A stretch of DNA of 42,956 nucleotides. Source: an uncultured Opitutia bacterium. Lineage in GTDB: Bacteria > Verrucomicrobiota > Verrucomicrobiia > Opitutales > Puniceicoccaceae. Positions 24,269 through 42,956 of this stretch are shown here, piece after piece; the first letter of the stretch is position 1; each line of letters starts with the position of its first letter. The position numbers and the translations under genes were made by a program. The notes under the pieces were generated by a model. The model was not told the DNA's origin. It saw nothing but the letters and a program-made list of their open reading frames with translations, and did not search any database. Location: contig CAJXLM010000019.1 of assembly GCA_913056175.1 (NCBI GenBank), positions 1 through 42,956 of the forward strand. Reading direction: 5' to 3'.

Positions 24269-25165
24269 CTATGCCGGAAAGGTCCGGCGCCAGGTTTGCG
24301 CCCCCCAAAGAGGCATCTGTACCTCCTCGATAGGCACTGCCCGGGGCGTGCCGGTCCAGCGGACCTGGTGACGCCGCACGTAGGCCTCCGAGCCGGCGAT
24401 CACCCGGCGGGCCATCGCTTCCTCGATCTCCCGCAGGGAGTAGCGCCCGGATTTGGCCCGGGCGACCCGGCCGGCCGGATTGAGAATCCAGTAGAGAGCC
24501 TCTTCGGCCGCTTGCCGGGTCCACGCCCGGAACTCCCGCCGCAGGGAGAACCGCCGGATGCCACTCCATCCGCCCGGGCCGACGGTCGACCACCGGTAAT
24601 CCCAGGGGTGGACGGCCTCCTCCGCCCGCACCGGGGCGACCTGCACGGCCGCGCGGTACCAACCTACCGCCTGCGGCTTCGGCTCGATGAGCACGCTCTG
24701 GAAACGGTCCGTCCAGAGGGGACCCTTCCGCTGGTACCGACGGTTGAACCAGCGGGTAAAGCGCTGCTTGATGGTTTGCATCAGCGCGGAAATGTCGTGC
24801 ATGCGCGCCAGCAGCGCCCGCCGGGCCTCCCGGGCCGTCTCGCCCCCCTTGGCCAGCACCGCCTCCAGCCCGTCCGCGTCGTAGCCGAGGAAGCCCACCG
24901 CGCCCCCGTAGAGGGCCCGGTAACGCGCCACCAGCTCCGCCGCACCCGCGTCCTTCCTCTCCCGCGGGTCGGCCACTACCACCAGCTGGATCCCCGTCGG
25001 CAGCACCACGCACTCCAGCACATCCACCCCCGCAAACTCCGTCGCCCGTACCGCCAGCCCCATCAGAAATTCCCGCTCCTCCGCCCCCAACCGAAACTCC
25101 CCCAACAGCTCCGTCCGCACGTAATAGTACCCTTTCCCTTTCAGCTTGTACCGCCGCCGTCTCAT
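24269..25165 (-). CDS. RAYT-like Y1 transposase homologue with both catalytic motifs lost
   Basis: A 298-residue protein with the overall pattern of REP-associated/IS200-like Y1 transposases: VVLP in the core strand (residues 53-56), then NRRYQRKGPLWTDRFQSVLIE (about 141-161), APVRA (177-181) and DYRWST. The HUH motif that should follow VVLP is replaced by T-G-I-Q (57-60), so both histidines are missing. The catalytic tyrosine expected four residues before the Asn/Ala of 'NPVRA' is Ala173. I therefore infer that it cannot cut DNA by the HUH mechanism and may be a domesticated DNA-binding protein. The frame is intact, with normal composition after the G-rich start. It sits between the pdh operon and cutA with a repeat cluster upstream. 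Confidence 0.85.
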   Translation of the reverse strand: MRRRRYKLKGKGYYYVRTELLGEFRLGAEEREFLMGLAVRATEFAGVDVLECVVLPTGIQLVVVADPRERKDAGAAELVARYRALYGGAVGFLGYDADGLEAVLAKGGETAREARRALLARMHDISALMQTIKQRFTRWFNRRYQRKGPLWTDRFQSVLIEPKPQAVGWYRAAVQVAPVRAEEAVHPWDYRWSTVGPGGWSGIRRFSLRREFRAWTRQAAEEALYWILNPAGRVARAKSGRYSLREIEEAMARRVIAGSEAYVRRHQVRWTGTPRAVPIEEVQMPLWGAQTWRRTFPA

Positions 25166-25236
25166 GCACTCACCCCATCACAAATTTTCTGCCTTAGTCA
25201 ATAGCAATTTTCCCTGTCCCTGCAATCTTCAGTTCT

Positions 25237-25329: not shown

Positions 25330-25634
25330 TGGTTTGTGCGGGGTATGGGGTTGGGGGGTTGGACTTGGTCGGGAAAGAGGGCGTTGCCGGGGGGAGGAAA
25401 CTGTTTTCGTCTTTGGGGATTCTTTCCCGATCCTTTGGTCGGCCGGGCTCTGTGCGGTGGGAAAGCCTGGGCGAGGACTTTCTGGCTGGGTGGGCTCTGT
25501 GCGGTGGGAAAGCTTGGGAGCTCGGGGTGGGGGCTTTTGGAGCGGCGGGCTTTGTGCGGTGGGAAAGCCCTGGGTAGCACTTCTTGGCCCGGCGGAGTGC
25601 TGTCCTCTGGAGTCGGTTCGGAAAGACGTTCGGG
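25330..25634. repeat. REP-like repeat cluster upstream of the RAYT-like gene
   Basis: Three clear units share GGGCTYTGTGCGGTGGGAAA and then G-C-rich ends: 25445-25471, 25492-25518 and 25547-25574 (27, 27 and 28 bp; gaps of 20 and 28 bp). The third is a perfect 7-bp hairpin, GGGCTTT / AAAGCCC with a 10-nt loop; the first two keep only part of the stem. Degenerate look-alikes occur near 25330-25350, 25362-25382 and 25611-25634. Start-to-start distances of 47 and 55 bp are not multiples of three, so this is not a coding repeat. A hairpin repeat next to a Y1-transposase relative resembles a REP/RAYT arrangement. Confidence 0.65.
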
Positions 25635-42840: not shown

Positions 42841-42956
42841 ATGAGACGGCGGCGGTACAAGTTGAGGGGGGAGGGGTATTACTATTTGCGGGGGGAGTTG
42901 TTGGGGGAGTTTCGGTTGGGGGCGGAGGAGCGGGAGTTTTTGATGCGGCTGGCGGT
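42841..42956 (+). CDS. RAYT-like (Y1 transposase-related) protein, N-terminal fragment cut by window edge
   Basis: The first 38 codons of a RAYT-like gene running off the right edge; the start MRRRRYKLRGEGYYYLRGEL matches the other copies. Of 116 bases, 59 are G and 12 are C (hand count), an extreme strand bias created by codons such as GGG, GAG and TTG. The catalytic region is outside the window, so activity cannot be judged. Confidence 0.75.
   Translation, partial: MRRRRYKLRGEGYYYLRGELLGEFRLGAEEREFLMRLA

Follow-up and report, generated by a model that had tools for sequence, protein, structure and literature searches.

Residues 58-60 of a full-length transposase homologue read Gly-Ile-Gln where a nuclease of its family would carry its HUH histidines, and the question that this locus raises is whether such a gene is a transposase in decay or a member of a family kept for something other than cutting DNA. 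The gene, L001, occupies positions 24269-25165 on the minus strand of the window, that is, the whole stretch of 42,956 nucleotides analysed, which belongs to an uncultured bacterium of the order Opitutales whose assembly comprises 2.61 Mb in 84 contigs and is 96.5% complete. It lies between a CutA gene and a pyruvate dehydrogenase E1 alpha gene, and encodes 298 amino acids in an open frame, which confirmed the sequence-only reading of an intact, full-length protein. An AlphaFold model built from the family alignment (mean pLDDT 88.6) found its best structural match in TnpA-REP (PDB 4er8; Z 13.8, rmsd 2.7 Å over 151 residues, Foldseek E 1e-4), followed by IS608 (Z 9.1) and then other IS200-type transposases. 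The window protein matches Pfam Y1_Tnp with 16.3 bits (cut-off 23) and NCBIfam REP_Tyr_transpos with 22.2 bits (cut-off 80); despite these scores below the cut-offs, fold and phylogeny place it firmly in the TnpA-Y1 (RAYT/TIRYT) family.

The active-site columns were anchored on the solved TnpA-REP structure 4er8, whose Y115 and HUH align with the YIDLN and NHFH columns of the relatives, and on 91 relatives from other genomes that retain HUH. In this alignment, the HUH columns of the window copy (residues 58-60; 24986-24994, minus strand) correspond to Gly-Ile-Gln, and the Tyr-x-x-x-Asn columns (residues 173-177; 24635-24649, minus strand) to Ala-Val-Gln-Val-Ala, with Ala173 (24647-24649) at the catalytic tyrosine and Ala177 (24635-24637) at the third metal ligand, which is N119 in E. 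coli TnpA-REP (PMC6006769). The assignment of both sites first made from the letters alone, GIQ for HUH and Ala173 for the tyrosine, was thus upheld, and the structural match to TnpA-REP confirmed the fold.

Searching the genome gave 70 family matches, hence the term multicopy, used of this gene at the outset, was an understatement. Most matches are pieces at contig ends, because the family copies break the assembly, so that the total of at least 40 loci (26 group-A, 7 group-B and 2-3 group-C loci, and 8 full-length copies) sets a minimum. Group A, with 26 N-terminal pieces in differing upstream flanks and 19 C-terminal pieces, is known from pieces, some 16 residues of the middle of the protein being unassembled; group B is represented by seven N-terminal pieces, and group C by two N-terminal and three C-terminal ones. 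Within the window, two contig-end-cut N-terminal pieces of group A accompany L001, one at 3-86 on the minus strand (L070; 89% identity to residues 1-28) and the other at 42841-42954 on the plus strand (L027; 87% identity to residues 1-38), in agreement with the earlier estimate of at least three members. A large share of the contig ends lies in the gene family or its arrays (e.g., L004, L010, L016, L022, L061, L065, L091 and other group-A loci), and thus the family is a main cause of assembly fragmentation.

HUH and the tyrosine are absent from seven of the eight full-length copies (L001, L002, L003, L006, L009, L011 and L012), and the eighth, L014, retains HUH as HFH with the tyrosine replaced by Gln. 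Among the pieces, the HUH columns are covered by five, all of group A and all with TGIQ or RGIQ; the sole group-A piece that extends to the tyrosine (L004) has Ser there, and two group-B pieces have Phe. The HUH-bearing relatives have 41 columns conserved at 95% or more, of which at least six of the seven HUH-less copies retain 17, largely between residues 122 and 157 (plus F44, G46, R81, R180, Y190 and G258), including a core at residues 124-160 (24686-24796, minus strand; D-S--M---KQR----N------G--W--RF-S) that is invariant in both sets. A further 15 have disappeared from every one of the seven, including H15, N57, H58, H60, Y173, D175 and N177; residue 173 is A, S, L, F or H, residue 177 is Ala in every one, and two replacements are uniform (A171 to R and N177 to A). 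Alignment and model together indicate that the nuclease has been lost in the HUH-less clade, and the combination of lost and kept columns points to a changed, still constrained function, not to decay.

Relatives from other genomes retain HUH and Tyr in 91 of 91 aligned cases, and in other genera, where they often occur in many copies per genome, both were present in every copy inspected. Genomes of the same order are rich in diverged HUH+Tyr copies, with 39 matches in G003 and 45 of 45 scored candidates matching in G024; in G199, also of this order, a first look gave 243 candidates. Phylogenetic analysis of 103 proteins unites the seven HUH-less copies in a single clade (support 100/99), with L014 as its long-branched sister (98/80, a node for which the program warns that long branches meet). 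L014 (G000:C6:62778-63623) is a single copy and, with HUH kept and Tyr changed to Gln, perhaps an intermediate step of site loss. Against a profile of the HUH-less proteins, the copies scored from this genome reach 447-495 bits, and the best from other genomes of the class do not exceed 198 bits; across the 384 genomes searched, with the best six candidates per genome scored, no HUH-less branch was found elsewhere, and HUH and Tyr are present in all retrieved relatives with a readable site. As far as seen in these sequences, the loss of the nuclease site is confined to this lineage, and most likely it preceded the amplification of group A, since it is common to all group-A pieces and to the related copies L001-L003. 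No family relative was found in the viral contigs searched, and a plasmid search gave one weak match of 70 residues. It had been proposed that this gene would be an ordinary dead transposase if most copies in related genomes retained HUH and Tyr; the relatives do retain them, but the conclusion does not follow, because the dead form is the amplified and constrained one in its own genome.

Upstream of L001, GGGACAG, a spacer and TTGAC (25197-25220, minus strand) constitute a diverged form of the element found before other copies and relatives. In group A, upstream conservation sets in abruptly some 87 nt ahead of the ATG (consensus GGAATATAATGACAGGCTTT...CTTGACTT), and an arrangement of short motif, TTGAC and ATG is seen again, with differing motifs, in most other copies of this genome and most HUH-bearing relatives of the same taxonomic family. 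Downstream, group-A copies have tandem palindrome modules of about 300 bp, ordered as hairpins tagged with GGCA[GT]GGGA, a spacer (GGGTTCGGG, a T run and CGGGGAATTCAA), and hairpins with the inverse linker TCCCTGC. A local pairing count over 22 modules, on hairpins picked from the consensus and without shuffle control, found the three left-hand stems to be 93-94% paired, the first with G-C to A-T double changes, and those on the right to be less regular (76-79%). RNAalifold, given the modules in full length, preferred long-range pairs, with covariation not above that of shuffles, and was less informative than the local count. Repeat counts are high beside the copies of this genome and nearly nil beside most HUH-bearing relatives, and no arrays adjoin the HUH+Tyr copies inspected in G003 and G024. 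The modules were found only beside family genes, not dispersed alone; apparent stand-alone arrays detected with the linker pattern were explained either by group-A arrays running into a contig end or by chance matches lacking the central motif of the module. No module lies beside L001, which has only a local threefold repeat upstream, and the single copies L002, L006, L009 and L011 are equally without them; therefore, the modules are either not the target of every member or are bound in trans. The arrays could also be by-products of local recombination.

The spread of the family had been ascribed in the sequence-only reading, as a possibility, to mobilisation in trans by an active relative. 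According to this explanation, the dead genes are non-autonomous elements moved by an intact HUH/Tyr enzyme, and their low dN/dS reflects the repeated copying of good versions. The dispersal of at least 26 group-A units, in unrelated surroundings and sharply bounded on the 5' side, is consistent with it, as are the perfect 16-bp terminal inverted repeats of L014, which show that ancestors had TIRYT-type ends, and the presence of two intact TnpA-Y1 genes in the genome. These two TnpA-Y1-like genes (L099 in G000:C7 and L100 in G000:C8), with HSH and Tyr intact and TTGAC about 36 nt before each start, belong however to another subclass, and no end motif or hairpin linker common to them and groups A-C was found, which leaves mobilisation in trans without positive support. 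Nor was a family member with intact HUH and Tyr found in this 96.5% complete genome. Furthermore, movement by another enzyme would leave unexplained why a protein without a role stays conserved, at dN/dS of about 0.01-0.15. We regard this explanation as unlikely, although a partner not seen here may exist.

The conservation itself is most evident in group A, for which dN/dS was computed without the window copy. Values are 0.10-0.15 for the N-terminal stretches and 0.01-0.02 for the C-terminal ones (at pS 0.17-0.20), with 0.07 for the longest stretch, available in two copies. No stop codon occurs in the 2,207 codons of the 45 group-A pieces. The window copy yields a dN/dS of 0.23-0.31 when compared with group A and L002, its closest paralogues, and of 0.42 when compared with L003. 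These intact frames and dN/dS values rule out an ordinary pseudogene, and they bear out, through purifying selection, the initial description of a repeated, intact and full-length family without a nuclease site.

A family that is functionless and passive, whose copies look well preserved because they are young or are homogenised by gene conversion alone, would account for part of these observations. Four-gamete violations, seen in 11 of 28 and 9 of 10 group-A site pairs, indicate that dispersed copies probably recombine or undergo gene conversion, to which recurrent mutation can contribute, and some identical stretches are long enough to break the assembly. However, synonymous sites of group A differ by 13-20% and non-synonymous ones by 0.2-3%, a disparity that gene conversion by itself does not create; the absence of stops and the old diverged copies, still open at dN/dS of 0.28-0.42, also argue against passivity, which makes this account rather improbable. 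That a relocated active site still cuts DNA (e.g., Gln60, kept in five of the seven HUH-less full-length copies, together with Y6 or Y14, tyrosines of the N-terminus invariant in the seven) is very improbable, given that both metal-binding histidines and H15 are lost, residue 173 is any of five amino acids, Asn177 is uniformly Ala, and Y14, being conserved in HUH-bearing relatives too, is no new nucleophile.

We favour, with a probability of roughly 0.5, the reading that a RAYT/TIRYT lineage lost its nuclease, amplified, and survives as a DNA-binding, probably hairpin-binding, family. A TnpA-Y1 lineage in an ancestor of this bacterium would have lost its nuclease site and then multiplied to at least 40 loci. 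Its protein would bind DNA without cutting it, the likeliest target being the hairpins next to its genes in their folded, single-stranded form, and this binding would be what selection keeps. The suggestion rests on TnpA-REP proteins, which bind folded REP hairpins (PMC8266576), and on a family that lost the catalytic residues and kept the core. The benefit might lie with the host, for instance in genome organisation, in the 3' ends of transcripts or in regulation of the family's genes; alternatively, the protein might take part in a recombination-based selfish cycle. A repeated, intact family without the nuclease site and under purifying selection makes a binding role appear the most economical reading. 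More tentatively, a nuclease-free RAYT may have become one of the most numerous families of its genome only after total loss of the catalytic site, spreading and being homogenised along with its hairpin arrays through a pathway independent of any nuclease of its own, so that binding alone drives or rewards multiplication; this stronger version is possible, though less likely than not.

The closest described systems are TnpA-REP/RAYT, TIRYT/TIRtron and TnpA-Y1 subclass 2.3. The family resembles TnpA-REP/RAYT (E. coli, PDB 4er8; TnpA-Y1 class 2, PMC6006769, PMC8266576) in its fold (Z 13.8 over 151 residues), in the conserved core W--RF-S, and in the palindromic arrays that adjoin group-A genes in inverted clusters, as in BIMEs. 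It differs in the absence of HUH, Tyr and the metal-ligand Asn, in having dozens of near-identical copies where RAYTs have one per genome, in hairpin modules found beside the genes only and not dispersed, and in the tag, GGCA[GT]GGGA instead of GTAG. With TIRYT/TIRtron elements (PMC3733652; largely TnpA-Y1 subclass 2.1), it shares the layout of short motif, TTGAC and ATG in most of its members, and the perfect inverted repeats of L014, in which GGGGACAG fits the motif GGGGWSAS. All TIRYTs aligned in PMC3733652 keep HUH and Tyr, whereas the HUH-less clade has neither; TIRtron motifs are inverted, whereas those of groups B and C are direct, and no inverted ends were found around the window copy. 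Subclass 2.3 (PMC6006769) is similarly multicopy (more than five per genome) with diverged copies, at least 39 being present in relatives of this order, and its median HUH-to-Tyr distance of 110 residues is close to the ~113 found here, although this assignment is by length and spacing only, not by tree, and the published set is limited to proteins with HuH and Y. The family is a derivative of RAYT/TIRYT and not an active member, because the catalytic residues that define those groups are missing from it.

In the literature, RAYTs figure as domesticated transposases with HUH and Tyr retained, and the open-access papers searched did not describe a dead-nuclease branch that is both amplified and constrained. 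The superfamily survey (PMC6006769) set aside sequences without HuH and Y as presumably non-functional, and members of precisely this kind are the amplified, conserved ones in the genome studied here. The family thus makes it possible to test directly if the binding of hairpins could by itself be what selection maintains in a descendant of RAYTs, and poses the question of how a gene family spreads once its nuclease is lost.

Other repeats surround these loci. L014 is bounded by the perfect 16-bp inverted repeats GGGGGACAGACATCGC; a search of 400 bp upstream and 600 bp downstream of the window copy revealed none. Groups B (L064, L086, L096, L097) and C (L087-L089) have flanks differing from those of group A, their own motif, TCTGTCCC-CACAAT or ATGTCCCTTTTAATC, being repeated in direct orientation ahead of the gene and some 250 bp downstream of it; L097 lies near a tRNA-Cys gene and L089 near a tRNA-Arg gene. 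Upstream of L001, at 25434-25595, there are three tandem GC-rich units with TGTGCGGTGGGAAAGC, which we discarded as a genome-wide REP, its three matches in the genome all being at this locus. Other group-A copies (L063, L030, L023, L069 and L076) likewise display locus-specific upstream tandem repeats of their own.
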